Source of the DNA: a virus
Strand: one strand, 5' to 3'
IMG/VR virus record: IMGVR_UViG_3300024346_009227
Span: 52,975-116,974 of that record
Length of the DNA: 64,000 nucleotides
Part shown: in pieces, positions 45,101-64,000 of the stretch
Numbering within the stretch: the stretch's first letter is position 1
How the letters are laid out: each line of letters opens with the position of its first letter
Notes under the pieces: generated by a model
The model's input: only the letters and a program-made list of their open reading frames with translations
Told to the model about the DNA's origin: nothing
Database searches by the model: none
Made by a program: the position numbers and the translations under genes

Positions 45101-47721
45101 CCCTGTTCACCTTGAAATCCTTGATAACCCTGTTCGCCTTGAAAACCTTGATTTCCTTGATCTCCCTGATTACCTTGATTTCCTTGATCACCTTGAAAAC
45201 CTTGATTTCCCTGATCTCCCTGATCTCCCTGATTACCTTGAAATCCTTGGTTTCCTTGATGCCCTTGCGATCCTTGATCGCCTGTTCTAGCAAATGTAAT
45301 TATAACATCTTCACTGTTGACAAATGGAGTTGAACCACTTCCACTAACATATGAACAATCTACTTGAAAATAACCAGACAATTCACTCACATTAGAAATG
45401 GTGAATAATGCAAAAGAAGAAGAATCAAATTTTTTAGATACTCTAAAATGACCTTTAATTGTCGATGTAGAATCATCTATTGTTCTTAAAAATTCTTGAA
45501 TATCAGTAGAATTATCGTTTTGATCATCAATCAATAAATGTGTTGCATTTACAAGATTTGCTTGATCAAATTTTAATTTTCCAGAAGTTGGATCAGTATT
45601 ATCATTGTTAGAAATGAATGTGTAATCAAAAGAAGCACCACCAAAATTTCCATCATTGCCCTGATTGCCTTGATTACCTTGATTGCCTTGTATTCCTTGA
45701 GATCCTTGTAAACCTTGTAAACCTTGGAAACCCTGTTCTCCTTGGAATCCTTGATCACCTTGAAAGCCTTGGAATCCTTGATCACCTTGTTCTCCCTGAT
45801 TTCCTTGCAACCCTTGATCACCTTGGAATCCTTGATCTCCTTGATCTCCTTGAAATCCTTGATCACCTTGGAATCCTTGATCTCCTTGATCTCCTTGATC
45901 TCCTTGATTTCCTTGATCACCTTGATTTCCTTGATTTCCTTGATTCCCTTGATTCCCCTGATATCCTTGATCACCTTGGAATCCTTGAATTCCCTGATCA
46001 CCTTGCAATCCTTGATTGCCCTGATCTCCTTGAAAACCTTGTTCTCCAATTTTCCCTGCAAGACAAATTGAAAGAGTGTTATATGTTTTAAATCCTGGGC
46101 TTGAAGAATGCGTAACAACTGCAACTATATCCCCTGTTGTGGGATTATAAGAAGTTATTCGCATGTACTGTATAATATTGTCAGTCGGTGCGTATACAGA
46201 CAGTATTTGTCCAGCACCAAAAGCTAAACCTGTCGCTATAGGACTTTGATAATAATTTTCACCAACTGTTTGAAAATAATATTCGCCTGTGTTTTGTGTA
46301 GTGCAAATTAAAGGTGTTGTGCCTTGATTTCCTTGATACCCTTGATCACCTTGATTGCCTTGTAACCCCTGTTCACCTTGAAAACCTTGTTCTCCTTTTT
46401 CACCTTGTGATCCTTGATTTCCTTGTTCTCCCTGATTGCCTTGAAACCCCTGTTCGCCTTGAAATCCTTGTTCCCCCTGTTCACCTTGATATCCTTGATC
46501 ACCTTGGTTTCCTTGTGCCCCTTGTGCTCCTTGATCACCTTGATATCCTTGATTACCAGAATCCCCCTTATCTCCAGTTCTTGCAAAAGTTAAAAGTACT
46601 TCATCATTATTTGAAAATGTTCCATTTCCAGATAGATAAGAAATAACAACATCAAAAAAACTTGGTTCTTCTTCTGTTGCAGAACTAATTGAATAAAGTG
46701 CAAATACTGTCGAATCATTTTTCTTAGATAGTTTAAAGTGACCCTTCATTGTGCTTGTTGATGCGGAAATGGTATTTAAATATAAAGAAAGATCAATACT
46801 TGAGTTGTTTGGATTATCATCAATAATAACATGTGTAGCTAATGCAATATTAGAATTATTGAATCTTATAAAATTATCGCCGGGATCGTTTATTGTATAA
46901 TTAAGAGTGTCTATAAGGTATTCAACTGTGACACCACCAAAGTTTCCATTTGAACCTTGATTGCCTTGTTCACCTTGAAAACCCTGTTCGCCTTGAAATC
47001 CTTGGTTGCCTTGTTCACCTTGAAATCCTTGTTCACCCTGACCACCTTGAACTCCCTGTTCACCCTGCCATCCTTGATTTCCTTGAAAACCTTGTTCACC
47101 TTGGAAACCTTGATTGCCTTGCTCTCCTTGAAAACCTTGGTCGCCTTGATGACCTTGATCACCCTGTCTTCCCTGCCATCCTTGATCACCTTGCCAGCCC
47201 TGATCTCCTTGATGTCCTTGAAAACCTTGTCTTCCCTGCCATCCTTGTTCACCTTGCCAACCTTGATCTCCTTGATGACCTTGCCAACCTTGATCACCTT
47301 GACTTCCTTGTTGTCCTTGAAAACCTTGATCTCCTTGGTGACCTTGAAATCCTTGATTTCCTTGCCAACCCTGATCTCCTTGATGGCCTTGAAATCCTTG
47401 TCTTCCTTGATTTCCTTGATTTCCTTGAAAACCTTGTCTTCCTTGAGATCCTTGCGATCCTTGCGATCCAGTTGTTCCTTTTTCAGCAAAAATTGTCCAC
47501 CAACTATTTTCCGCAGGGGTAACTCCATCAATAGTTGATATGCAAATCCAAGACGAACCACCATATGTAACTACATCATTTACATAATATTGTGAACTAG
47601 GGTTATAGGCTCCACGAAAAGTAAGACCAACACCAATAGACCCTTGATTACCTTGGTCACCTTGATCTCCTTGAAAACCTTGTTCGCCCATTTGACCTTG
47701 ATGTCCTTGAACACCAATCAT
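39184..47721 (-). CDS. Giant collagen-like adhesin with multiple inserted domains and a tail collar tip
   Basis: From the first unbroken ATG the protein is 2845 aa. Gly-X-Gln collagenous runs are broken by globular modules. Three CBM5/12-like modules lie at ~33-85, ~1149-1202 and ~2002-2057 (e.g. GAYNPSSQYYVNDVVTYGGS … WWTIFAEKG). Four copies of a ~125-residue unit lie at ~259-387, 692-812, 925-1046 and 1712-1836 (e.g. ATHVIIDDNP … GHFKLSKKNDS). Unique inserts are at ~468-558, ~1317-1492 and ~1852-1900. A module at ~2257-2332 is shared with the 761-aa fibre. Residues ~2643-2845 are a tail collar domain (FAGSTAPAGWLLCDG; VPDLRGRTIIG; SHSHP; ALNYIIKT). This suggests a very long trimeric fibre that may bind polysaccharide. 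The ATG at 47721 has a poor ribosome site; see 47770-47877. Confidence 0.85.
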   Translation of the reverse strand: MIGVQGHQGQMGEQGFQGDQGDQGNQGSIGVGLTFRGAYNPSSQYYVNDVVTYGGSSWICISTIDGVTPAENSWWTIFAEKGTTGSQGSQGSQGRQGFQGNQGNQGRQGFQGHQGDQGWQGNQGFQGHQGDQGFQGQQGSQGDQGWQGHQGDQGWQGEQGWQGRQGFQGHQGDQGWQGDQGWQGRQGDQGHQGDQGFQGEQGNQGFQGEQGFQGNQGWQGEQGVQGGQGEQGFQGEQGNQGFQGEQGFQGEQGNQGSNGNFGGVTVEYLIDTLNYTINDPGDNFIRFNNSNIALATHVIIDDNPNNSSIDLSLYLNTISASTSTMKGHFKLSKKNDSTVFALYSISSATEEEPSFFDVVISYLSGNGTFSNNDEVLLTFARTGDKGDSGNQGYQGDQGAQGAQGNQGDQGYQGEQGEQGFQGEQGFQGNQGEQGNQGSQGEKGEQGFQGEQGLQGNQGDQGYQGNQGTTPLICTTQNTGEYYFQTVGENYYQSPIATGLAFGAGQILSVYAPTDNIIQYMRITSYNPTTGDIVAVVTHSSSPGFKTYNTLSICLAGKIGEQGFQGDQGNQGLQGDQGIQGFQGDQGYQGNQGNQGNQGNQGDQGNQGDQGDQGDQGFQGDQGFQGDQGDQGFQGDQGLQGNQGEQGDQGFQGFQGDQGFQGEQGFQGLQGLQGSQGIQGNQGNQGNQGNDGNFGGASFDYTFISNNDNTDPTSGKLKFDQANLVNATHLLIDDQNDNSTDIQEFLRTIDDSTSTIKGHFRVSKKFDSSSFALFTISNVSELSGYFQVDCSYVSGSGSTPFVNSEDVIITFARTGDQGSQGHQGNQGFQGNQGDQGDQGNQGFQGDQGNQGNQGDQGNQGFQGEQGYQGFQGEQGNQGDQGNQGEQGFQGNQGEQGNQGSQGEQGYQGWQGEQGSQGNQGDQGERGIAALSWTYKVNTTTLTDLDPTNDYISFNADPFTSATQVKVDDNPYGLNTTLHDLFLSIQSGYLTLTSQANPSTYVTYQITSCVDGTATNDTEDGSYVIFNVALVSTYGVINNEDFVTLSIGIVGSQGDQGYQGSQGNQGDQGSQGDQGEQGFQGNQGQQGSQGEQGFQGDQGFQGDQGFQGNQGNQGDQGFQGEQGNQGEQGNQGYQGNQGNQGEQGNQGNQGSDALWNFTGAYSGGASYAIGDIATYLGQTWYRIHSNGGNLGDTPAEGTFWTLIAQKGDQGYQGSQGNQGNQGDQGFQGNQGDQGHQGFQGEQGEQGIQGHQGFQGYQGEQGIQGDQGYQGDQGFQGQQGNQGDQGDQGDQGEQGYQGEQGLQGLQGNQGFQGNQGYRGESTGETYYFNYSVASDVNGYKQLSITPIATSQQMVTTSLAGNTNDVLIASFITPQLGFSVIPGGSQLFHQHFLKQASNDHIQTYITIQLANSTGTPIGPILSTNAPMIGWTDSTNAVETLMDLVLTTTTIDSTNRMIVKIYANNDDSTAHSLKWYTEGNAYYSFARTTVSVVPVIGEQGFQGFQGNQGLQGIQGYQGFQGQQGNQGPQGNQGEQGHQGNQGEQGFQGNQGEQGYQGNQGEQGDQGFQGSQGNQGFQGEQGFQGNQGEQGFQGFQGDQGNQGWQGEQGSQGDQGFQGEQGNQGEQGFQGNQGDQGFQGEQGFQGEQGFQGNQGEQGFQGEQGNQGNQGDQGWQGEQGLQGDQGNQGEHGNQGDQGLQGDQGNYGNQGDQGYQGSTGSFGGVTVEYKIDTNNYSINDPGDNYIRFNNASLASATHVIIDDNPNNANIDLSLFLATISASTSTMKGHFKLSKKNDSTVFALYTISNSSEQEPSFFDVTISYLSGSGTFSNDDEVLLTFARTGDKGDTGYQGYQGYQGINRGIYTASSTAPSSPDAGDMWLDTTTGIIYIFIYDGVTGIWIQPVGSIGAQGLQGHQGSGFQGSQGLQGLQGLQGFQGHQGNQGDQGYQGFQGTQGYQGHQGEQGYQGFQGLQGNQGNQGQQGYQGNQGYQGYQGYQGHQGTQGDQGYQGEVPFSYIGTWSSLTTYVLNDAVTYQGSFYQLVNIGAWSLGSSPPNNGWALLVSKGDQGNQGYQGEQGEQGEQGEQGYQGNQGLRGNQGFLGLKGEQGDQGYQGYFGLQGSQGRQGRQGIQGDQGNQGYQGDQGDQGYQGFQGRQGFQGNQGEQGDQGDQGEQGNRGNQGFQGNQGSQGRQGTQGEQGEQGDQGFQGRQGLQGRQGFQGNQGNQGLQGDQGQQGFQGYQGFQGLQGNQGSQGIQGHQGYQGYQGQTGSGVSIKGSDTWENIFNVETSGATVGDVWIITDTEQGTATEGCPNPSIGIANIGNGLIYNGNAPIYWQNIGFIRGPQGYQGIQGVQGFQGNQGDQGRQGIYGNQGDQGFQGVQGSQGDIGFQGRQGNQGVQGSVGEQGYQGRQGLQGIIGSTGAQGSQGSQGTNGSQGLQGLQGSSGNQGYQGATGGTGSQGSSGTNGSQGYQGYQGLVGVQGSQGFQSSGSVTSVSLSVPAIFSLSGSPVTTAGGFTIGLVNQTANTILASPNGSTGAPSFRALVASDIPILNQDTTGKSSVATHLAGGAAGQISYQTGSGSTAMLAAGTSGQILKSNGSAAPAWINQNAITAGGLSATLTVSSGGTGLTSVGTIGNVLTSDGTNWVSSPAAVSTPSGSIVAFAGSTAPAGWLLCDGTNTYSRVTYSALFAVIGTTYSAGNGTTFGVPDLRGRTIIGVGQGSGLTNRGLSVTVGAETITLNASQIPSHSHPNIVYGSNGGNTGYMSNNQVHNHSQLIAAGAGLGTGANGFANLGGGYLDRLIVRGNEKAGWDVYTNNSPNLDHTHTFTPVIENKNNTGGDNPHNNMQPSMALNYIIKT
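39790..47690. repeat. Collagen-coding DNA repeats in the giant adhesin gene
   Basis: Repeated nine-base units coding Gly-X-Gln fill most of this gene between the globular inserts. The units vary at the second triplet position, mostly Asp, Asn, Phe, Tyr, Glu, His, Arg or Trp codons. The many open frames on the opposite strand here (rich in Leu, Ile and Asp or in Lys and Ile) are shadows of these repeats and not genes. Confidence 0.85.
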
Positions 47722-54362: not shown

Positions 54363-56492
54363 TTACTCTATAGTGTTATTACACCTTGTGGGAACAACTA
54401 TACCATAACCAGAACCATGATTGGTAGCTTTTTTGAACCATTCTGGCCCAATATACATTTCCTTATCCTCTGCATTTTGAGATGCGACATGCCTAGCAAA
54501 CCCACCAGTATGAGTATATTCATCTTGAACTTCAATTCTTTGAAATGCTCTAGCTACCATATTTGCCATAAGCAATGCAGAATACCTATCTTTTCTTGTT
54601 CTGCTCTTTTTACCATCTGGATCTCTACTTTCTGGAGTATCCCATCTATCTCTGCCCGATGGAGTATGAACATGAACAATACTAGAAAGCTCATCTTTTA
54701 GTTCTTCTATATCCATCACACAATCTTCTAGGGTGTCATACATATTAACCCTTCCTGTTGCCATATCTTCTTCTTGTGCAAGAGTCAATGAGATTGGGTC
54801 AAAGTATGGAAATAGCAAAGTCTTGTCTTCTAAATCTTTTCTTAATCCATGATTTGCTTCTACTACCCAGTTTGGATCAGCAAAATTTATCATCGATAAA
54901 ATATGTTCACCACTTTTATCGTCTGAGTCTTTTCTTTTAAGTGGATCAATTACTTTATAGATTGCTTTTTCTGAATCCTGCAATCTATTCGTATCTTGAA
55001 GTCCTTCCTCAATAGCAATACCTCCACCTTGACTATCCAAAGCTATGCGAACCATATTGGGAAACATCTTTGCTAAATTTCTTATTTTTCTACAGCAATA
55101 ACTGTAAAAGTCTTTTTCATTTACAATTCCACTTTTCATTTTTTCTTTAAACGAAGATCTAGTTGTAGTCCAGCAATATACTATTCGTCTATGATCTGGA
55201 TAAAGTGCTAAGATTATTACTGCAAAATTATCTCTTTCAGATGCTGGATCAATAGCCATAACATGCTGCACAGATGAATCGCCAAGAAGAGAAGCATGAA
55301 ATAAAACTTCCCCACTAGGTAAAACAATTGGCGAACTTGGATTTCCAGAAACGCAAGATTCAATTAAGCTTCTCTTAAAAAAACCATCTGAATCAGTTGC
55401 AAATGTAGCACCATATTCAATTAGATAATTCGCCTTAGTGCTATTTATTCTTGCAGAAGTTATTTGCTTCGCATCCATAAAACCTGGCGGTAATATTTCC
55501 ACAGGAAGTCTTATGATTGAATAATCTCTCCAATCAAAGCCATCTGGAACTGGCCCTTGAAATATCTGTTCTAATAAATTTTTGTCTCCATTACTTTCAA
55601 TAATTCTTTTATAGTTAAACCATGTTTTATAAAAATGATTAAACGAGTAGTATGCTGTACCAGAAACTATGTTTTGATTGCTTCTAAGTATCTTGCTTTC
55701 CTGTGCTTCATCTTCATCAGTCCAAACCCCAAGCTGTTTCATCAATCTTATTTTTGCTTGCCTATGAACTTTTTCACTTGGGTTAGAAGATACGCTAGAG
55801 AAACCCCTTACCACATTTTGATAAATGTCTTCTCTAATAGAAGCGAACTCGTCACAAACTGTATAGTTAGCTCTTTGACCTCTAATCTTTTCACCTGTTC
55901 CCAATGGCAATGCCATAGCAACACTTTCCCCAACAATCATTTCGCATCTATCTATGTCTCGTCTTGGGCCTTGATCTCTATTATTTCTACCTTTGCCAAC
56001 ACCGCATATGTCTCTATAGATAACCCCATTTGCCCATAGACCTTCCATGTATTCAAATATAACTTTACTCTGTCTAAATACTTTACCTATGATTGCAATC
56101 TTGCATCCTTGGGTAAATAAAAGTCTAAGCATAGAATATAACGCAAGGATATAACTTTTCCCTGCACCACGACCAGCGATGATCATTGGGAATGGTCTTT
56201 TCCAAAGCTCTTTTAAAATGATGTGTTGAAAAGGAAATATATCTATTCCAAACAGAAGCTTGCATGTAAAAGGAAAGTAGTCTGGATTTCTCATTATCTT
56301 TAGCAGATATATATCCATTCTTTCCATGTCTGCTTTAGAAATGTTTTTAAGAGGATGGATCGTATTTAATGGAACATCAACTATTCGTTGAATATCATTA
56401 ATATCTGTAAGAGGATTTACCGCAAGCATTTCCTGCTCAGAAAGCATCCAAGCTCGGTCTATTATCCTCTTTAACTTCTCTTGGTCCTTCAT
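54363..56492 (-). CDS. Terminase large subunit
   Basis: The motor that cuts and packages DNA. I start at the ATG at 56492 (MKDQEKLKRIIDRAWM) rather than the TTG two codons earlier; the true site lies inside the upstream gene's last 60 nt. A Walker A motif GRGAGKS is at ~104-112 and a Walker B-like VCDEFAS at ~206-216. Nuclease-domain landmarks are AIDPASERDNFAVI (~411), IALDSQGGG (~480) and the C-terminal DRYSALLMANMVAR (~625). At ~709 residues it is within the size range of TerL from large phages. It probably acts with the 259-aa candidate small terminase. Confidence 0.93.
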   Translation of the reverse strand: MKDQEKLKRIIDRAWMLSEQEMLAVNPLTDINDIQRIVDVPLNTIHPLKNISKADMERMDIYLLKIMRNPDYFPFTCKLLFGIDIFPFQHIILKELWKRPFPMIIAGRGAGKSYILALYSMLRLLFTQGCKIAIIGKVFRQSKVIFEYMEGLWANGVIYRDICGVGKGRNNRDQGPRRDIDRCEMIVGESVAMALPLGTGEKIRGQRANYTVCDEFASIREDIYQNVVRGFSSVSSNPSEKVHRQAKIRLMKQLGVWTDEDEAQESKILRSNQNIVSGTAYYSFNHFYKTWFNYKRIIESNGDKNLLEQIFQGPVPDGFDWRDYSIIRLPVEILPPGFMDAKQITSARINSTKANYLIEYGATFATDSDGFFKRSLIESCVSGNPSSPIVLPSGEVLFHASLLGDSSVQHVMAIDPASERDNFAVIILALYPDHRRIVYCWTTTRSSFKEKMKSGIVNEKDFYSYCCRKIRNLAKMFPNMVRIALDSQGGGIAIEEGLQDTNRLQDSEKAIYKVIDPLKRKDSDDKSGEHILSMINFADPNWVVEANHGLRKDLEDKTLLFPYFDPISLTLAQEEDMATGRVNMYDTLEDCVMDIEELKDELSSIVHVHTPSGRDRWDTPESRDPDGKKSRTRKDRYSALLMANMVARAFQRIEVQDEYTHTGGFARHVASQNAEDKEMYIGPEWFKKATNHGSGYGIVVPTRCNNTIE

Positions 56493-56943
56493 TTTCAATT
56501 ACTCGTTTGAATATGGAAGAGGCAACTGTTTGCCCATGATTTTCACAAAAGATTATTTTAACCTTATACTTTAATTCTATTTCTATCAATCTTTTCAATA
56601 GGAAAAATGGATTAAGCTTTACGCTCTTCATCTTGTAGGATGGTATGCCAGTTCCTTTTGGGTATTTGATTAAGTCATCCATAGAGAATTCTAAAATCAT
56701 AAATGCATATTTAAACGACTGCATTCTTTCTAGTTCTCTTTCAAATCTATCTTCAACTAAATTTGTTGCCAGTTCTGCAATAGAACCTTTTCTTTCTATT
56801 GTCAGTATGTCTTGATATCCCTCTATGGAATAATCACCAGTCTTTAGTGTTCCAGATACAGTTCCTTCACAAGCTTTTGCTGGCATAAAAGTCCAGCCGT
56901 TTTGCTCTCTCGTATCTCTGATTACTTTATACTTTATGTCCAT
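56437..56943 (-). CDS. ERCC4-type nuclease
   Basis: A 168-aa protein beginning MDIKYKVIRDTREQNGWTF. It has the ERCC4/XPF nuclease signature in order: D-x-RE-x2 (DTREQ), GTLKTGDYSIEG and IERKGSIAELATNL, followed by a basic helix (RFERELERMQ). In this family these acidic and ERK residues bind metal and cut structured DNA. It overlaps gmd by 17 nt and terL by 56 nt. Adjacent to the terminase, it may resolve branched concatemers before packaging; this is inference. It has no helix-hairpin-helix domain, unlike cellular XPF/Mus81. Confidence 0.75.
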   Translation of the reverse strand: MDIKYKVIRDTREQNGWTFMPAKACEGTVSGTLKTGDYSIEGYQDILTIERKGSIAELATNLVEDRFERELERMQSFKYAFMILEFSMDDLIKYPKGTGIPSYKMKSVKLNPFFLLKRLIEIELKYKVKIIFCENHGQTVASSIFKRVIENEGPREVKEDNRPSLDAF

Positions 56944-57976: not shown

Positions 57977-58748
57977 CGTCTTTATCCTTTGGAATTAAAA
58001 CTGGTAGGTCTTGACTACCATCATCAAATGTATGAACGCTAGTTAACTTCTTCTCTTCTTTTTTAGTGGCAAGCTTCATGGTTTCCATAGTACCTCCCAC
58101 TAAGTCACGCTCTTCCTCATTCTGAAGTTTTTTAATGATTGCCAAGTATGTCTCTTTAGATGACTCGATACGAGTAATACGCTGATCTCTAGTTGCCTTT
58201 AAGTCCTTGAGCAATCCCTGATGTTTTTCTTCAAGTTTAATAAATTCTGTAGACCTAGCCTGTTCAGAAGATTTAGCTGCTTGTATCTGTGTCTCTAAGC
58301 CGAGCACATATTCACGATCAGATTCGGACATGCCTTGCATATCAGGAAATCTTCTCATATATTCTTCCTGCATTCTAATCAGCTTCGCTATCTCTTTGCC
58401 AGAGTTTCTTTTGCTTTTAGCATTCCTATGCATCATTATCTCAAACTTGATAACCAAAAATATTTGTGTTTCCTCAGTTACGAGAACATCTTCTCTGAAC
58501 TGGGCCATGTACTTTACATACTGCTCTTCAAAATATTCCAACTCTTCTTCATCCATTTCCTGCTTAAGCTGCTTCCAAGCTTTACTACTTCTTAAATTTT
58601 TATGATTTTCATCATTGAGTGTCTGTACAAACTCTTCAATTAGTACCACAGGCTTGAGCAAGAGCGTGCTCATATCTTCTAACGATAAAGTTTCATGGTG
58701 CTTAGTTATATAATCACGATCAGTTTTATTCAGCTTCTTTCCTGCCAT
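57969..58748 (-). CDS. Candidate terminase small subunit (HTH plus coiled coil)
   Basis: A 259-aa protein. I start it at the ATG at 58748 (MAGKKLNKTDRDYITKHHE), as AAGGAGATCCTCA lies just ahead; an earlier in-frame codon lacks this. Residues ~4-45 look like a helix-turn-helix (DRDYITKHHETLSLEDMSTLL). Long Lys/Glu/Gln-rich helices fill most of the rest, with QAAKSSEQARSTEFIKLEEK-like coiled coil at ~150-230. An N-terminal DNA-binding domain and a central oligomerising helix is the plan of terminase small subunits, and it precedes terL with gmd and the nuclease gene between. It could instead be a scaffold or transcription accessory. Assignment by plan and position. Confidence 0.5.
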   Translation of the reverse strand: MAGKKLNKTDRDYITKHHETLSLEDMSTLLLKPVVLIEEFVQTLNDENHKNLRSSKAWKQLKQEMDEEELEYFEEQYVKYMAQFREDVLVTEETQIFLVIKFEIMMHRNAKSKRNSGKEIAKLIRMQEEYMRRFPDMQGMSESDREYVLGLETQIQAAKSSEQARSTEFIKLEEKHQGLLKDLKATRDQRITRIESSKETYLAIIKKLQNEEERDLVGGTMETMKLATKKEEKKLTSVHTFDDGSQDLPVLIPKDKDDE

Positions 58749-59319
58749 TGAGGATCTCCTTAATTGCTTGTTCAACTCTTTGTTTTTTTATTTTGGGAAC
58801 AGACTCACCAGCTTTAATTCTAAGATATATTGAACGAAGTTCAACAGGAAGGTGCAAGTCTATTAGATTAGAACACTCAGATATGTTCGCCTCATCTACA
58901 ACAGATTGTTTTCCGTGTGCGTTCTTTTCTGTATCGTCTGAGATTGTTTGTATATCTAAGGGTCGCATTAAATTTTGCTTAGACGAATTCCTTTTTTTCC
59001 ATGCCTTATACTTTTCGCAGTAATTGCCATCTGAACATTTGTTCGAGTCATGACATGGTTTACATGGGGGATCTGTTCTATGATACTTGTCTCTCTTGAA
59101 ATTTATAAGTCTGTTTTTAATATGGGAATAAAGAAAGTTTTCTAAGGGGCGAGATGGGTCATAGCGAGATAAAGATTCAAGTCCAAATATGTAAGCTTCC
59201 TGCCTAATGTCTTCCACATCGTAATATCCGAAGGTAAATGTTGGGGCAAGAAGGTTGATCGCTTTCTTTAAAGCTGCTATAACTTCTTCTTCCTTTAATC
59301 CATGCGGATAATCATTCAT
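58726..59319 (-). CDS. Sigma-70-like factor with Cys cluster (candidate late sigma)
   Basis: A 197-aa protein beginning MNDYPHGLKEEEVIAALKK, with an 8-nt overlap with the short gene upstream. Residues ~34-78 look like sigma region 2 (DVEDIRQEAYIFGLESLSRYD … FLYSHIKNRLINFKRD). Immediately after is a four-cysteine cluster (CKPCHDSNKCSDGNYC), which could bind zinc or iron-sulphur. A reduced region 4-like segment lies at ~160-190. It is the first substantial gene of the leftward structural block, so it may direct late transcription, like T4 gp55. This is inference. Region 2 recognition is fair; region 4 is weak. Confidence 0.6.
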   Translation of the reverse strand: MNDYPHGLKEEEVIAALKKAINLLAPTFTFGYYDVEDIRQEAYIFGLESLSRYDPSRPLENFLYSHIKNRLINFKRDKYHRTDPPCKPCHDSNKCSDGNYCEKYKAWKKRNSSKQNLMRPLDIQTISDDTEKNAHGKQSVVDEANISECSNLIDLHLPVELRSIYLRIKAGESVPKIKKQRVEQAIKEILNGRKEAE

Positions 59320-59617: not shown

Positions 59618-59785
59618 TGCCATTTTGGCAGTCTGCCATTTTGGCATCCGAATTGAAAAAACCCCTGCCATTCTGTCATGCGACACCTGTCATTTTGGCA
59701 TCCCGCTGGTATTACCTAGTATTACTATTTTGGTATAACTTTGTTATATTTCAACCCTAGCAAGTAGCAATATGCCATTTTGGCA
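59618..59785. promoter_or_regulatory. Five copies of palindrome TGCCA-TTT-TGGCA (operator family I)
   Basis: Perfect copies are at 59618-59630, 59634-59646 and 59773-59785. Near-perfect copies are at 59666-59678 (TGCCATTCTGTCA) and 59688-59700 (TGTCATTTTGGCA). Each has 5-bp arms around a TTT centre, and some extend to 6-7 bp. Clustered copies with unequal spacing (16, 32, 22 and 85 bp) are what a dimeric repressor or an origin-binding protein would bind. Confidence 0.8.
59707..59750. promoter_or_regulatory. Two copies of operator family II palindrome
   Basis: TGGTATTAC-CTA-GTATTACT (59707-59726) and TTGGTATAAC-TTT-GTTATATT (59730-59750) are two imperfect dyads of consensus TGGTATWAC-N3-GTWWTACCA. 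Four more copies lie upstream of the small rightward genes. They sit between family I copies, so the two factors may interact here. Confidence 0.7.
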
Positions 59786-60127: not shown

Positions 60128-60655
60128 ATGGAAAATATGAAAAATGTATCTAATGATGAGATTGTTACCATTACTGCAAAAATGATCGGAGTCGGTCGAA
60201 AATACGGTTTTCAATCGGCCGATTGTCAAGACCTTGCTCAAGATGTTTTATATGTTGCGATAAGAAAATATAATCCTAATAAGGGAGCAAAATTCGCAAC
60301 ATTTTGCTGGTATCTATTCAATCGTAAGGTAATTGATGGACTTAGAAGAATTAATCATAAGTACTACAAAAAAACTTCCATTGCTAAAATGATGGATAAG
60401 GAGGAGGGTAATAATAAAGAAATTCAAGGTAAACGCCTTGACACAATGTCCGTCTTAAAGATGCATTTAAAGGATAATTTCGACGCTGGAATTATCACAC
60501 GGAAAGAACACGATGTTTTAGTTCTTAGGGCCCATGGTAACGATTTCTATGAAATTGCAAGTATACTTGATATTTCACTAGGATCGGCACATGGCACATA
60601 TCAAAAAGGCCTTGCCATGATATGTGAAGACGATGGTATCTTAGGGGCTGTTTAG
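60128..60655 (+). CDS. Sigma-70-family factor (ECF-like)
   Basis: A 175-aa protein beginning MENMKNVSNDEIVTITAKM, with AAGGATTTTTAGCT ahead of its ATG. Residues ~30-75 are region 2 (ADCQDLAQDVLYVAIRKYN … KFATFCWYLFNRKVIDGL). Residues ~125-165 are region 4 (EHDVLVLRAHGNDFYEIASI, SLGSAHGTYQKGLA). The two-domain plan is that of ECF sigma factors, with no region 3. It is the first rightward gene beside the operator array and ends in a strong terminator, so it is transcribed as its own unit. It may direct RNA polymerase to phage promoters such as the repeated TTGAAT-N18-AATAAT sites, but this link is untested. Confidence 0.8.
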   Translation: MENMKNVSNDEIVTITAKMIGVGRKYGFQSADCQDLAQDVLYVAIRKYNPNKGAKFATFCWYLFNRKVIDGLRRINHKYYKKTSIAKMMDKEEGNNKEIQGKRLDTMSVLKMHLKDNFDAGIITRKEHDVLVLRAHGNDFYEIASILDISLGSAHGTYQKGLAMICEDDGILGAV

Positions 60656-60667
60656 TCTAGTCAATCA

Positions 60668-60702
60668 AAGCCCTAGTTATTGTTACTAGGGCTTATTTTC
60701 TT
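60668..60702 (+). terminator. Terminator after the second sigma-like gene
   Basis: AAGCCCTAGT - 7 nt - ACTAGGGCTT is a perfect 10-bp stem followed by ATTTTCTT. It lies 12 nt past the stop codon and insulates the gene from the small-gene cassettes. Confidence 0.9.
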
Positions 60703-60731
60703 AATAGTATATAGAATAAAGGGATAATAGA

Positions 60732-60965
60732 ATGATTAATGATAAGAACACTAAAACAGCCGTAATAAATGCCTTTAACAATCTTAAGTCTAATTTTAAA
60801 AATACTTGCGACGATATGTTATTTTATAAGGTTTATGGCGAAATAACAAAGTGTTCACATGAAGAAAATTATACACCTACTTTATTATTCAATGATAAAA
60901 TTTTAATGGATTATGAATTTAAGTCCTGCGATTGTTTAAATATTCAATGTAATTGCAAGCCGTAA
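60732..60965 (+). CDS. Small hypothetical protein
   Basis: A 77-aa protein beginning MINDKNTKTAVINAFNNLK, with AAAGGGATAATAG before ATG. It has a Cys-rich end (SCDCLNIQCNCKP) that could bind metal, and 'KCSHEENYTP' in the middle. The stop codon lies in the GTAA loop of an AGCC/GGCT hairpin. It has no recognised motif. Probably an early small protein acting on the host, by position. Confidence 0.55.
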   Translation: MINDKNTKTAVINAFNNLKSNFKNTCDDMLFYKVYGEITKCSHEENYTPTLLFNDKILMDYEFKSCDCLNIQCNCKP

Positions 60966-60996
60966 GGCTAACAATGGCTTGACATCGTAAGATGGA

Positions 60997-61058
60997 AAGC
61001 CCGGCCGATAGGCCAAAAATAAAAAACACCTGCTTGTCTTACCAAGACCAACGGGCTT
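60997..61058 (+). ncRNA. Repeated three-way-junction RNA element, copy 1
   Basis: AAGCCC (60997-61002) pairs with GGGCTT (61053-61058) to close the element. Inside are GGCC-GATA-GGCC (61003-61014), an A-rich linker ending CACCTGC, and a hairpin with GTCTT-ACC-AAGAC (61036-61048). A second copy at 62370-62430 keeps the same plan, with a compensatory change in the third stem (U-A at 61034/61050 here, C-G there). It lies after a small gene and before the next promoter. Function unknown. Confidence 0.7.
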
Positions 61059-61103
61059 AGGGAAGCTATGCCTATAGGCTAAGATCGGCAAAGTTGCCTC
61101 GCA

Positions 61104-61126
61104 TTGTATAACATTGTAATACCAAA
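61104..61126. promoter_or_regulatory. Operator family II copy upstream of promoter 1
   Basis: TTGTATAAC-ATT-GTAATACCAA (61104-61126) ends 26 bp before the -35 box of promoter 1. Similar copies stand 20-28 bp before promoters 4 and 5. This fixed place upstream of the -35 favours an activator or an upstream regulator. Confidence 0.65.
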
Positions 61127-61152
61127 TATATTTAAATTATTTTAAAATTGTT

Positions 61153-61182
61153 TTGAATAAATCTTAAGTTCAATCGGATAAT
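61153..61182 (+). promoter_or_regulatory. Repeated phage promoter 1
   Basis: TTGAAT (61153-61158), an 18-bp spacer ending in CG, and GATAAT (61177-61182), followed by AAGGTATAAGGGAAA. It drives the 74-aa gene at 61236. The leader contains the inverted repeat AAGGTATAA/TTATACCTT, which may form a hairpin. Confidence 0.8.
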
Positions 61183-61235
61183 AAGGTATAAGGGAAACAA
61201 AAAGTTATACCTTACAACAAAAAGGAAAGTGAATC

Positions 61236-61460
61236 ATGTTGTTTTACAATAGCGAAATTGTGGATGCTGTAAATGAGATTTATACTTTAAAAGTCAACAA
61301 CAAGCGGGGTTTTGTGTCGATTTTCCGTAAAGGTTGGTTTATAGGTAAGTTGGATTTGAAAAATGGGGCATTATGGTTCCATAGGGAGTGGAAGGGCGGT
61401 TTTACCGCAAGGGCGGTTAGAGTTTGGCATCATTACGGAAGAAATCGACCGATGTGGTAA
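61236..61460 (+). CDS. Small basic hypothetical protein
   Basis: A 74-aa protein beginning MLFYNSEIVDAVNEIYTLK, with AAAAGGAAAGTGAATC before ATG. It is basic and Trp-rich in the second half (GALWFHREWKGG; RVWHHYGRNRPMW), suggesting nucleic-acid or protein binding. It is followed at once by a UUCG-loop terminator that contains its stop codon. Single-gene early cassette under promoter 1. No family recognised. Confidence 0.6.
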   Translation: MLFYNSEIVDAVNEIYTLKVNNKRGFVSIFRKGWFIGKLDLKNGALWFHREWKGGFTARAVRVWHHYGRNRPMW

Positions 61461-61479
61461 CCCTTCGGGGTTAATTTTT
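61458..61479 (+). terminator. UUCG-tetraloop terminator containing a stop codon
   Basis: TAACCC-TTCG-GGGTTA is a perfect 6-bp stem with a UUCG-type loop, followed by ATTTTTA. Its first three bases are the TAA stop of the 74-aa gene. A strong, compact intrinsic terminator. Confidence 0.75.
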
Positions 61480-61490
61480 AAAAAAAAGAA

Positions 61491-61519
61491 CCTGCTGTCT
61501 TATCAAAGATAGTGGGCTT
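61491..61519 (+). ncRNA. Partial copy 3 of the repeated RNA element
   Basis: CCTGC, the hairpin CTGTCTT-ATCA-AAGATAG (61495-61512; 7 bp with a G-U pair) and TGGGCTT match the 3' half of copies 1 and 2. The closing AAGCCC strand and GATA hairpin are missing. It could be a decayed or reduced form. Confidence 0.5.
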
Positions 61520-61610
61520 CGCCAAGGTATGCCCATACCCCATAGTCTAATTAGATATGTTTGTCTTTATATATGGTTACAAATAATTTTAAAATAAAAT
61601 AAAATAAGTT

Positions 61611-61640
61611 TGAATAAATTTATAGTTCAAACGAATAATA
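61611..61640 (+). promoter_or_regulatory. Repeated phage promoter 2
   Basis: TTGAAT (61611-61616), 18 bp ending AACG, then AATAAT (61635-61640) and AAGGTATGAAGGAAA. It drives the 81-aa gene at 61697. A degenerate half of operator family II (TGGTTAC) lies ~30 bp upstream. Confidence 0.8.
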
Positions 61641-61696
61641 AGGTATGAAGGAAACACAAAGTTAAACTTCTAAGCTTAAAAGAAAAGGATTGTAGA

Positions 61697-61942
61697 ATGG
61701 TTAAGATTGAAAATGGGCGTTTTAGTGAGACTACCTTTATAGAAGATATAGTGGGTAAAAAGATAGTTATCAACAAATATCGTAATCAAGAGGGTTATAG
61801 ACTAGGTTTTGTCGAGTCTACCACTAGAGGTAAGCATGGTTATACTTTATTGCTAACATTCAATGACGAATGCCATTTTAACGAAAAGTCTATAAGTCGA
61901 TATTGCCTTCATAACATAGAAGATGCAGTAGTCTTTATGTAA
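61697..61942 (+). CDS. Small hypothetical protein
   Basis: An 81-aa protein beginning MVKIENGRFSETTFIEDIV, with AAAAGGATTGTAGA before ATG. It is basic and beta-rich, with GKKIVINKYRNQEGYRLGF in the first half and CHFNEKSISRYCLHNIEDA near the end. One candidate fold is a small OB- or SH3-like barrel, but no family is recognised. Its TAA at 61940-61942 is followed ~26 nt later by promoter 3, so the cassette is very tight. Confidence 0.55.
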   Translation: MVKIENGRFSETTFIEDIVGKKIVINKYRNQEGYRLGFVESTTRGKHGYTLLLTFNDECHFNEKSISRYCLHNIEDAVVFM

Positions 61943-61968
61943 ATAAAAAAAGTTTTTTCTAATTTTTC

Positions 61969-61998
61969 TTGAATAAAATTAGACTTCATACGAATAAT
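61969..61998 (+). promoter_or_regulatory. Repeated phage promoter 3
   Basis: TTGAAT (61969-61974), 18 bp ending TACG, then AATAAT (61993-61998) and ATAGCATAGAAG. It drives the 62-aa and 35-aa genes. No operator family II copy fits upstream, as the previous gene occupies the space. Confidence 0.75.
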
Positions 61999-62032
61999 AT
62001 AGCATAGAAGTAACCCTAACATGGAGAGTAAG

Positions 62033-62221
62033 ATGAATAGTTATAATCCCTTTGTATGCGATTTCATTATGCAAGAGAAAAAAGCAAGGCGTATGACACA
62101 AGGCGAATTGCAATATGCAATAGAAGATTGTCGGGAATGCATTCTATTGAATATAAATCCAGACAAATATCGTGACCAAATATCGGTCTATAAAATGGAA
62201 CTAACAAGGAGGGCTAAGTAA
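62033..62221 (+). CDS. Small hypothetical protein
   Basis: A 62-aa protein taken to start at the ATG at 62033 (MNSYNPFVCDFIMQEKKAR), because GGAGAGTAAG precedes it; this is the same AAGGAAAGTAAG-type site seen before the other rightward genes. The 12-nt upstream ATG lies inside the ribosome site. The protein is helical with a CDF…CRECILL pair of Cys segments. Its TAA overlaps the ATG of the next gene (TAATG). No family recognised. Confidence 0.55.
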   Translation: MNSYNPFVCDFIMQEKKARRMTQGELQYAIEDCRECILLNINPDKYRDQISVYKMELTRRAK

Positions 62222-62328
62222 TGACTAATGAACAGGTTAACATGATGGTTTTGTTTGGCTTACTAGTGTATTGTTCCTGCTTATATCAGTTCATTGCTTA
62301 TATAAACAGGCCAGTACAATACAAATAA
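62221..62328 (+). CDS. 35-aa single-pass membrane protein
   Basis: A short frame beginning MTNEQVNMMVLFGLLVYCS and ending INRPVQYK. A central hydrophobic run (MMVLFGLLVYCSCLYQFIAY) is long enough to cross a membrane, with a polar N-terminus and basic C-terminus. AAGGAGGGCTAAGTA gives a very strong ribosome site and the ATG overlaps the upstream TAA. It is likely a genuine small membrane protein, perhaps one that acts on the host envelope. Too short for family assignment. Confidence 0.65.
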   Translation: MTNEQVNMMVLFGLLVYCSCLYQFIAYINRPVQYK

Positions 62329-62369
62329 AGTTGGGGGGCGAAAGCCCCTCGATGGATTTCTCGAAGAGA

Positions 62370-62430
62370 AAGCCCGGCCGATAGGCCAAGAAAAAAAACA
62401 CCTGCCTGTCTTACCAAGACTGGCGGGCTT
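62370..62430 (+). ncRNA. Repeated three-way-junction RNA element, copy 2
   Basis: AAGCCC (62370-62375) pairs with GGGCTT (62425-62430). GGCC-GATA-GGCC (62376-62387) forms the second stem. An A-rich linker ends CACCTGC, and the third stem has CCTGTCTT-ACC-AAGACTGG (62405-62423), with an internal U-U mismatch where copy 1 has U-C. The C-G pairs at 62406/62422 and 62405/62423 replace U-A and a mismatch in copy 1. Conserved loops and a compensatory change support a selected RNA structure. Confidence 0.72.
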
Positions 62431-62435
62431 GCGGA

Positions 62436-62495
62436 GGTATTACCTTGTATTACCACTGCTACCAAAGCAAAAATTGGTATTACTTTGTTATACCA
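62436..62495. promoter_or_regulatory. Two operator family II copies upstream of promoter 4
   Basis: GGTATTAC-CTT-GTATTACCA (62436-62455) and the best dyad of the family, TGGTATTAC-TTT-GTTATACCA (62475-62495). The second ends 28 bp before the -35 box of promoter 4. Confidence 0.7.
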
Positions 62496-62523
62496 GTTAT
62501 CTTGAAAATATTTTTATTTTTAT

Positions 62524-62553
62524 TTGAATAAATTTAAGTTTCAAACGAATAAT
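62524..62553 (+). promoter_or_regulatory. Repeated phage promoter 4 (no ORF downstream)
   Basis: TTGAAT (62524-62529), 18 bp ending AACG, then AATAAT (62548-62553) and ATAGTATGAAAGGAAAA. The transcript would run into a ~100-nt structured stretch without a plausible ORF before the next operator. Confidence 0.8.
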
Positions 62554-62569
62554 ATAGTATGAAAGGAAA

Positions 62570-62676
62570 ACAAAGTATCTAAAGGGAACTATCTGAAAAA
62601 TCGGGAAGGGCCGATATAAAACAAGCTTGCCTACTGGGGGTATCCAGTGGGAATGGGGGGAGGCTGCACATTTTTA
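62570..62676 (+). ncRNA. Candidate small RNA driven by promoter 4
   Basis: Only a 7-codon frame (MKGKQSI) follows promoter 4. The stretch then folds into ATCGG-GAAGGG-CCGAT, ACTGG-GGGTAT-CCAGT and an enclosing GCCT…AGGC pairing, then T-rich CACATTTTTAATTT. A promoter, structured body and terminal T-run are what a small regulatory RNA would show. No homologue is known to me. Confidence 0.5.
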
Positions 62677-62677
62677 A

Positions 62678-62699
62678 TTTGGTATAACTTAGTATTATT
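62678..62699. promoter_or_regulatory. Operator family II copy upstream of promoter 5
   Basis: TTTGGTATAAC-TTA-GTATTATT ends 20 bp before the -35 box of promoter 5, the same side and similar distance as for promoters 1 and 4. Confidence 0.65.
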
Positions 62700-62719
62700 T
62701 AAAATATTTTAAAATTGTT

Positions 62720-62749
62720 TTGAATAAATTTTAAGTTAAAACGAATAAT
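62720..62749 (+). promoter_or_regulatory. Repeated phage promoter 5
   Basis: TTGAAT (62720-62725), 18 bp ending AACG, then AATAAT (62744-62749) and AAAGTATGGAAGA. It drives the 83-aa acidic gene. Confidence 0.8.
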
Positions 62750-62791
62750 AAAGTATGGAAGATGAAACACTATAACGAAAAGGAAAGTAAA

Positions 62792-63043
62792 ATGATCGAA
62801 TTTAATGACGATGGCCAGTGGGAACAAAATCAAGATGATCTTATCGAATATCTTGGTAATGAGAGAGATTATGAGATTGTAATCGATGATGAAAATATTG
62901 AACCAAATTGGGATATCTTAACAACTACTAACAAGGCTATTGAAGATTTTGATCTTGAAAAGCTTACTGAAAGAATGATCGAAAAGCATGAATGCGAATT
63001 GGCTTTGTTGGAAGAATTTGAAAATAATTGTGAAAAGTTTTGA
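62792..63043 (+). CDS. Small acidic hypothetical protein
   Basis: An 83-aa protein taken to start at the ATG at 62792 (MIEFNDDGQWEQNQDDLIE), which is preceded by AAAAGGAAAGTAAA like the other rightward genes; an earlier in-frame ATG at 62762 lacks this. It is highly acidic (Asp/Glu-rich throughout) and helical at the end (RMIEKHECELALLEEFENN). Acidic small early proteins can mimic DNA, but this cannot be shown here. The -35 box of promoter 6 overlaps its TGA. Confidence 0.6.
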   Translation: MIEFNDDGQWEQNQDDLIEYLGNERDYEIVIDDENIEPNWDILTTTNKAIEDFDLEKLTERMIEKHECELALLEEFENNCEKF

Positions 63044-63069
63044 ATAATTTGGAAGTTGAAACGAATAAT
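63040..63069 (+). promoter_or_regulatory. Repeated phage promoter 6, overlapping a stop codon
   Basis: TTGAAT (63040-63045) contains the TGA (63041-63043) that ends the 83-aa gene. The 18-bp spacer ends AACG and AATAAT follows (63064-63069), then ATAGTATGAAGG. It drives the 229-aa gene. Confidence 0.78.
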
Positions 63070-63107
63070 ATAGTATGAAGGTTTTACCCTAACACAAGGA
63101 AAGTAAG

Positions 63108-63797
63108 ATGTTAAGTCTAGAAGTTATTAAGCCAGTAGTTGAAATCAAGTTTAGTCAAACCGAAAAAATGCCTTGGATATCGTGGGATATCCCTGCATGG
63201 GAGTGCAAGACAGGCTCAAAGTTGGTGAATGTTGAAGGCTCTATATGTGAGGGTTGTTATGCTCTAAAGGGTAGGTATGGGTTTGGCATAGTCAAAGATG
63301 CAAATACGAATAGGTTTAATGAACTAGCCAAGGGGCTTGAAGTTTGGAAAGAAGCTTTTATCAAAGCATTGGGCAAGAAATATAAACATATGCGGGATAA
63401 ATCGCAAGCATACTTTAGGTGGTTTACTAGTGGCGATGTTCAAAGTTTGGAGATGTTGGTAGCTATGAATGAAATAGCTATTGCCCTGCCAGAAGTTAAG
63501 TTTTGGCTACCTACCAAGGAACATGGCATGGTTCGGGAATATCTTGCCCTGCATGGTGATTTTGCAAGTAACTTTACTGTTAGGCCGTCAATGTATATGG
63601 TCGATCAACTGCCTAGCAAGGGGCTAGGATTGCCTACAAGCACTGCAATAAGAACGCCAGTTAATGCGGATAGTCGGCACGAAAATATATGTCAAGCAAG
63701 CCTTGATGCCTTTAATGGTGCAAGCAAGGTTAATTGTGGCGATTGTCGCAAGTGTTGGGATAAAAGCGTAAACAATGTCGCATACATATACCACTAA
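63108..63797 (+). CDS. Gp88-like Cys-rich phage protein
   Basis: A 229-aa protein beginning MLSLEVIKPVVEIKFSQTE, with AAGGAAAGTAAG before ATG. It resembles the 'gene product 88' phage family: SICEGCYALKGRYGF near residue 45, then a central FRWFTSGDVQSLEMLVAMNE (the 'R-x-x-xSGD' region) and KFWLPTKEHGMV, and a C-terminal CGDCRKCWD. The cysteines may hold a metal or iron-sulphur site. The family's biochemical function is not established. It is the largest gene in the rightward cassette block. Confidence 0.7.
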   Translation: MLSLEVIKPVVEIKFSQTEKMPWISWDIPAWECKTGSKLVNVEGSICEGCYALKGRYGFGIVKDANTNRFNELAKGLEVWKEAFIKALGKKYKHMRDKSQAYFRWFTSGDVQSLEMLVAMNEIAIALPEVKFWLPTKEHGMVREYLALHGDFASNFTVRPSMYMVDQLPSKGLGLPTSTAIRTPVNADSRHENICQASLDAFNGASKVNCGDCRKCWDKSVNNVAYIYH

Positions 63798-63809
63798 GGG
63801 GGAAGTAAG

Positions 63810-64000
63810 ATGATAGTTAAAAACTGTAATCATGGTAAATGGCAAAATTTAGGTCAGGATACCGATGATGATGGGAATATCTTTCAACGCCACTATTGCA
63901 AGGTATGCAATATGGCAAGAGTAAAGGTTGTTGCCAAAATTGTTGGATATCGTAACATTGCCCAAACTTGTATGCGATATCTGCATACAGATTTTAAAAA
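63810..64000 (+). CDS. Zinc-ribbon-like small protein, partial
   Basis: A rightward frame starts at the ATG at 63810 with GGGGGAAGTAAG upstream and runs past the window end. The visible 63 residues begin MIVKNCNHGKWQNLGQDTD and contain C-x-H and HYCKVCN, spaced like a zinc ribbon. It lies 12 nt after the Gp88-like gene, so the two are probably co-transcribed from promoter 6. The C-terminus is not visible. Confidence 0.6.
   Translation, partial: MIVKNCNHGKWQNLGQDTDDDGNIFQRHYCKVCNMARVKVVAKIVGYRNIAQTCMRYLHTDFK

Follow-up and report, generated by a model that had tools for sequence, protein, structure and literature searches.

A moron of the lambdoid phages is an autonomous promoter–gene–terminator unit inserted between genes. 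In the T4-type phages, PeSL cassettes have been described, in which repeated units of promoter and stem-loop lie between accessory genes and the gene content is shuffled in a modular way among related phages (Arbiol et al. 2010; Comeau et al. 2014, as relayed in PMC4503421). T4-like phages also carry many lineage-specific small open reading frames (ORFs), each behind a copy of the early promoter consensus (PMC1524935). For the sigma factor gp47 of phage 7-11, bipartite promoters of the form GTAAtg-(16)-aCTA have been reported at eight promoters of late genes (PMC8948821). In the cluster K mycobacteriophages, start-associated sequences (SAS) and extended SAS (ESAS) precede some of the small genes in 11–19 copies, of which about half have inverted repeats; the SAS is the 13-bp sequence GGGATAGGAGCCC at the ribosome site and is thought to act in translation (PMC3203893).

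The locus analysed here is the right part of a 64,000-nucleotide window, bases 52975–116974 of the 116,974-bp IMG/VR record IMGVR_UViG_3300024346_009227, and it is probably where the regulon of a phage sigma factor begins, arranged as a series of expression slots. Judged from its sequence, the array would work like the T4 PeSL cassettes but is not a member of that group. Gene content is shuffled among relatives here too, and repeated promoters, with stem-loops at some junctions, likewise lie between small accessory genes. The differences are that stem-loops are missing at several junctions, that the probable reader of the promoters is a phage sigma factor of the extracytoplasmic function (ECF) type, and that an ORF with its ribosome site is exchanged across lineages. 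The PeSL cassettes reside in T4-like myoviruses, and the phage here is not T4-like. With phage 7-11 the locus shares a phage-encoded sigma factor and a bipartite promoter set that is not of the sigma70 type, but here the promoters number in the tens, each small gene having its own, and the array that they form is hypervariable and adjoins the sigma gene. The ribosome sites here are AAGGAAAGTRA-like and do not have the SAS sequence of cluster K; the repeated sequence is the promoter instead.

Promoters and Units of the Array

The array runs rightward, downstream of a divergent control region between two sigma-like genes, sigma2 and sigma1. Six promoters fit the pattern TTGAATAA-N13-WCGRATAAT without mismatch, all on the plus strand and with a constant length of 30 bp, spanning 61153–63069:

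61153–61182, plus strand: promoter 1 (exact match, 0 expected)
61610–61639, plus strand: promoter 2 (exact match)
61969–61998, plus strand: promoter 3 (exact match)
62524–62553, plus strand: promoter 4, ORF-less downstream (exact match)
62720–62749, plus strand: promoter 5 (exact match)
63040–63069, plus strand: promoter 6, overlapping the stop codon of gene F4 (exact match)

The pattern gave no match in 100 shuffles, and the sole other near match in the window, at 46689, has one mismatch. Each promoter is followed by a single small gene, a pair of them or a non-coding unit, and it lies some 35–60 bp upstream of the start codon. In the logo of 71 unique sites, a tract rich in A leads into TTGAATAA, 13 bp of spacer, ACGAATAAT and then a conserved RTAT, and the CG within ACGAATAAT, before the -10, is invariant. 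The promoter variant TCGGATAAT, at 61153 in the window and in the first slots of the relatives G002, G003, G004 and G005, makes up 7 of the 37 unique sites of lineage A and none of the 46 of lineage B.

The preliminary description had seen cassettes in which operator, promoter, common ribosome site, small gene and RNA element or terminator recur in the same order. The recurring parts themselves (promoters, palindromes, ribosome sites and the hairpin element E1) are real, but their order is not uniform: the gene at 60732 has no array promoter, unit 4 has no gene, and units 2 and 5 have no RNA element, although three E1 copies do occur, at about 61029, 61491 and 62401. The ribosome site held to be common, AAGGAAAGT(G/A)A, is found at units 1, 5 and 6, with variants in the other units. 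Each unit has a promoter, and stem-loops (E1 or terminator-like) stand at part of the junctions in the window.

Ten close contigs, G001–G010, were obtained from IMG/VR by a search with sigma1 and a search with the promoter pattern, and gene families were called and then compared across the related contigs. In the 141.8-kb contig G007, 29 promoter matches share one orientation and a single match has the opposite one, and the reversed control pattern gave 0 or 1 matches in every related record. Most single promoter matches in other contigs were set aside, owing to variable spacing or apparent coding coincidences. An identical promoter-like sequence stands at bases 91–120 and 141773–141802 of G007; its position near both ends suggests a terminal repeat and a complete genome. 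A lone array-type promoter in the opposite direction was seen in G010 (6195, plus strand) and G002 (7190, plus strand), and the sequence downstream of it resembles a copy of RNA-A, the presumed non-coding transcript of unit 4.

Promoter Dialects and the Candidate Reader

A search with the tail of RNA-A led to a second lineage, C (G022–G026), which has the same type of array with a -35 of (C/T)TAAATAA. At the third base of the -35, 97 of the 98 A and B sites have G, whereas all 50 sites of lineage C have A, and the same -35 change is found in each of 23 homologous cassette pairs; the sites are not independent of one another, and only counts are given. In addition, the final T of the -10 AATAAT is missing in 41 of the 43 unique lineage C sites. 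Because the -35 changes from TTG to YTA throughout lineage C, with region 4 of sigma1 changing alongside, the array promoters are probably not host early promoters, and they suit a phage sigma factor more than they do the host enzyme. This loss of the TTG and of the last -10 T also sets the array, by sequence, apart from the sigma70 early class of the PeSL promoters (PMC4503421), and the novel-ORF promoters of T4-like phages keep a sigma70-type -10 with T at -7 and A at -11 (PMC1524935), in contrast to the lineage C -10. With about 100 sites in one dialect, 50 in the second and homologous genes downstream of each, the array promoters offer a natural and countable example of promoter/sigma co-evolution.

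That the array promoters are ordinary early promoters of the kind known from T4, served by the primary sigma factor of the host, with sigma1 serving other genes, is an unlikely explanation. TTGAAT-N18-AATAAT does fit 9 of 12 sigma70 positions and has an A-rich tract upstream, and distant relatives have the same layout with sigma70-consensus promoters; however, no site of lineage C retains the G of the TTG, and the CG before the -10 never varies. One host-like planctomycete genome favours TTG-N20-TA---T in its upstream regions (31 versus 12 on the reverse strand), not the phage motif. Host use of the promoter motif was rejected, as the motif showed no enrichment relative to its reversed control when eight planctomycete genomes were scanned, and those of its copies that are conserved from genome to genome sit at or within coding regions.

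The two sigma-like genes are as follows:

60128–60655, plus strand: sigma1, an ECF-type sigma factor of 175 amino acids (aa), proposed reader of the array promoters (Pfam, structural model, region 4 switch)
58726–59319, minus strand: sigma2, second phage sigma-like protein, at the head of the leftward genes (Pfam Sigma70_r2)

Sigma1 matches Sigma70_r2 (PF04542) with 28.4 bits against a cut-off of 24, and its region 4 match to Pfam by sequence is below the cut-off. The AlphaFold model has two helical domains joined by an unstructured linker (mean predicted local distance difference test score 74.6, predicted template modelling score 0.40); a short linker replaces region 3, and the helices after it are H106-119, H125-135, H140-147 and H151-168. 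Among solved structures, ECF sigma factors, for example SigH and SigE, come closest. Region 4 of the model superimposes on that of sigF over 56 residues (Z 8.7, root-mean-square deviation 1.5 Å) and on region 4 of sigma-E on -35 DNA with Z 7.7; over the whole chain the deviation is large, since the model does not predict how the two domains are placed relative to each other. Region 4 is 54–61% identical between A and B, which share the -35, and 19–29% between A and C, which differ in it; in the predicted recognition helix, A/B have S-x-G-S-A-x-G-x-x-x-K, and C has S-x-G-R-I-S-Q-I-W-x-E. That sigma1 as a whole is only 43% identical between A and B does not speak against it as the reader, as region 4 is its better conserved part and switches with the -35. 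In lineage C, a promoter variant also lies upstream of sigma1 itself (tracks L211 and L225, position 1381; gene from about 1473), which suggests autoregulation there.

Sigma2 is also adjacent to the array, and it is 97–99% identical across A and B (G004 excepted), which share one dialect, so that it could be thought to read the array in place of sigma1. This is very improbable: G024 combines C promoters with an A-like sigma2 that is 82% identical to that of the window, and G004 combines A-type promoters with a diverged sigma2. Since sigma2 does not follow the promoter switch, sigma1 is the best candidate for the reader. A virion RNA polymerase was likewise considered and rejected, as no DxDGD-type motif was found in the large virion proteins tested (tape measure and collagen-like).

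Gene Exchange and the Mobile Unit

The genes of the array in the window are:

60732–60965, plus strand: F8, 77 aa, no array-type promoter in the window (ORF call, family comparison)
61236–61460, plus strand: F35, 74 aa, in the hypervariable slot (slot content differs in G002, G003, G004 and G007)
61697–61942, plus strand: F2, 81 aa (family comparison, identities)
62033–62221, plus strand: F3, 62 aa (family comparison)
62221–62328, plus strand: F6, 35 aa (family comparison)
62792–63043, plus strand: F4, 83 aa, acidic (family comparison)
63108–63797, plus strand: F5, 229 aa, Pfam GP88 (E 3e-22)
63810–64000, plus strand: F18, truncated by the end of the record (ORF call, family comparison)

The backbone of most close relatives is near-identical (terminase 99–100%, sigma2 97–99%), with G004 and G006 more distant, whereas the array proteins, sigma1 foremost, fall to about 43% identity. 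Among close relatives the order of the array genes is collinear, and small genes are gained, lost and replaced inside it. The hypervariable slot, which extends from promoter 1 with its leader to the start codon up to E1 copy 2, has five contents in five genomes: a 74-aa gene in G000 (the record of the window), genes of 59 aa in G002, 136 aa in G003 and 73 aa in G007, and in G004 a 91-aa gene followed by a promoter, RNA-A, another promoter and F8. F8 follows directly after sigma1 in G000, G001, G002 and G008 and has its own promoter in G004 and G005. Compared with G007, G010 lacks 1517 bp that include four promoters; the junction falls between AT-rich tracts that precede two promoters. G010 has also gained a clean insertion of 386 bp, consisting of a promoter and a 97-aa gene. 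Such an insertion of promoter plus gene recalls the lambdoid morons, but the units here form a dense array with one shared promoter dialect and without a clear terminator on each.

Between lineages, the clearest cases come from the comparison of G023 (C) with G007 and G010 (B): the homology starts 12–15 bp 5′ of the ORF and ends at or near the stop codon, and the promoters and leaders of these shared genes are unrelated. Other homology blocks of the same comparison extend over several genes. F2 of G007 is 96% identical to that of G023 and 43% to that of G000, and the backbone runs in the opposite direction, since the terminase of G007 is 100% identical to that of G000 versus 85% for G022/G026, and sigma2 98% versus 68%. 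F20, F32 and F46 lean the same way as F2. These incongruent gene histories imply that genes move between phages. The clearest unit shared across lineages is thus the ORF plus 12–15 bp with the ribosome site, with no promoter or leader, and as the genes that have crossed sit behind promoters of the local dialect, expression slots are supported and the complete cassette as a mobile unit is not. The proposed plug-in array for small genes therefore stands in close relatives, where gain, loss and replacement occur between conserved flanks; across lineages the same genes have non-homologous promoters and leaders, the very finding that the preliminary description had named as contradicting it, and its mobile unit of operator, promoter, gene and RNA element proves too large.

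In the mechanism that we propose, sigma1 would be made first, from a different promoter, bind the host core RNA polymerase and turn on all slots together, and its region 4 would set the promoter dialect of the lineage. An incoming ORF would settle with its ribosome site downstream of a resident promoter or, between close relatives, bring its promoter along, either by homologous recombination in the repeated promoter, leader and E1 sequence or by illegitimate recombination followed by selection. Palindromes of family II would be bound by a putative dimeric regulator, acting on the promoters that follow non-coding elements. The part of this in which region 4 sets a private dialect, and ORF and ribosome site cross dialects into the slots as sigma and slots stay paired, is tentative, its chances being slightly short of even. 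It suggests a route by which accessory genes could be exchanged between viruses with regulation retained, and offers a testable model for keeping newly acquired small phage genes under control.

It is also quite possible, though we lean against it, that there is no exchange device at all, the repeats reflecting common regulation and the variation being ordinary mosaicism held to gene boundaries by selection. Gene-only gains and losses do occur among the relatives, only ORF and ribosome site are common across lineages, as ordinary mosaicism would yield, and leaders may simply drift faster than ORFs. Against this, the flanks of the most variable slot, from promoter to start codon and from E1 onward, are kept in close relatives as the content is swapped, and the G010 deletion joins AT-rich tracts upstream of two promoters.

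Besides the gene-only changes, several further points count against a sigma1 regulon of slots. Some units have no operator or RNA element; region 2 of sigma1 is only 31–41% identical between A and B, though the -10 core is unchanged; and the dialect switch of lineage C may have happened just once on the sigma1 tree, in which case the correlation between promoter and sigma1 rests on one change. More distant lineages, found with sigma2 as bait, bear on the same question. In L226, L234 and L235, stretches of 8–10 kb contain consensus sigma70 promoters in numbers from several to about eleven, so that the layout does not need a phage sigma factor, and the GC-rich L220 has about 11 repeats of the type GGTYGAAAWTTTGGAAAAGCAAGCGAAAA upstream of small genes. 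No sigma1 homologue was detected in the stretches searched. A separate promoter for each small gene is thus a widespread arrangement, and the private dialect was seen only alongside sigma1. In L220 and L219, a 358-aa ORF with no Pfam match stands in the place of sigma1, and GC-rich hairpins with T-runs lie between units on the reverse strand upstream of sigma2 in L220 (and L219).

Palindromes, RNA Elements and the Phage

The operators of the preliminary description are the family II palindromes of 19 bp, GGTATWACNNNGTWATACC, with 14 matches when both strands are counted versus 3.3 ± 2.5 expected. They were indeed found upstream of promoters 1, 4 and 5, at gaps of 29, 29 and 20 bp. The palindromes and RNA elements of the array are (a dot marks features with no strand):

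60668–60694, plus strand: intrinsic-terminator-like hairpin 3′ of sigma1 (pattern scan)
61029–61072, plus strand: E1 copy 1 (element comparison; compensatory stem changes)
61105–61123, strand (.): family II palindrome upstream of promoter 1 (pattern match)
61491–61533, plus strand: E1 copy 2 (element comparison)
62401–62444, plus strand: E1 copy 3 (element comparison)
62436–62454, strand (.): family II palindrome, outer copy (pattern match)
62476–62494, strand (.): family II palindrome upstream of promoter 4 (pattern match)
62560–62670, plus strand, approximate ends: RNA-A, presumed non-coding transcript (unit kept between two promoters in most relatives)
62681–62699, strand (.): family II palindrome upstream of promoter 5 (pattern match)

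Promoters 3 and 6 have no family II palindrome upstream, and the one upstream of promoter 2 is decayed in the window and still recognisable in G002. In the relatives, the distances from palindrome centre to -35 are mostly 28–30, 38–39, 58–59 or 78–79 bp. Such spacings, near multiples of the helical turn, would suit an activator or a looping repressor, but they are only suggestive, as many of the copies share a common origin. Between sigma2 and sigma1, the divergent control region (59618–59785) has four palindromes of another type, TGCCATTTTGGCA, within one mismatch, where 0.2 are expected; these are likewise found in G002 and G003 and are absent from G004.

The stem of E1 has compensatory changes at pair 4 (G-C/A-U/G-U), pair 5 (C-G/G-C) and pair 6 (U-A/C-G), counted by hand because the MAFFT alignment had misaligned the stem. 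Both 3′-end formation and anti-termination are possible roles of E1, and a role as minus-strand terminator was rejected, as the T-run is not conserved between copies. The gene-less unit 4 (62524–62680) looks like a small-RNA unit; its RNA-A, composed of a purine-loop hairpin, a second hairpin and a G-rich tail, is found in lineage C too. RNA-B (L105:12500–12780 in G007) consists of a promoter, a good ribosome site, the two-codon ORF ATG TAT TAA and the conserved structured stretch GGGGMAAACCAMGGTGAGATACC; it is likewise present in G002, G004, G008, G010 and lineage C, and was found in these phages only. Rfam identities for E1, RNA-A and RNA-B were rejected, since matches were at chance level only, and the non-coding units RNA-A and E1 thus have no Rfam family match.

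As the end of the window is the end of the record, the array is cut at 64000. The leftward genes in the left part of the window include a terminase (54363–56498), a tape measure protein of 4941 aa and a collagen-like tail protein of 2845 aa, which together indicate a long-tailed phage; the terminase matches are 24–28% identical, to non-T4 phages, and no megablast match for the window was found among 50,697 phage records. The host is probably a freshwater member of the Planctomycetes (Planctomycetota), on which there are few phage papers in the literature searched. A DUF1501 protein in G007 (L106:11682–12632) is a clue to the host and a possible auxiliary gene, its best matches, 70–73% identical, being to metagenome-assembled genomes of Planctomycetota, several of them from lakes. 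G007 also has a CsrA homologue (L106:12956–13183; E 6e-9, over the Pfam cut-off) alongside RNA-A units that bear several GGA motifs, and a CsrA–RNA pair in this phage is conceivable.

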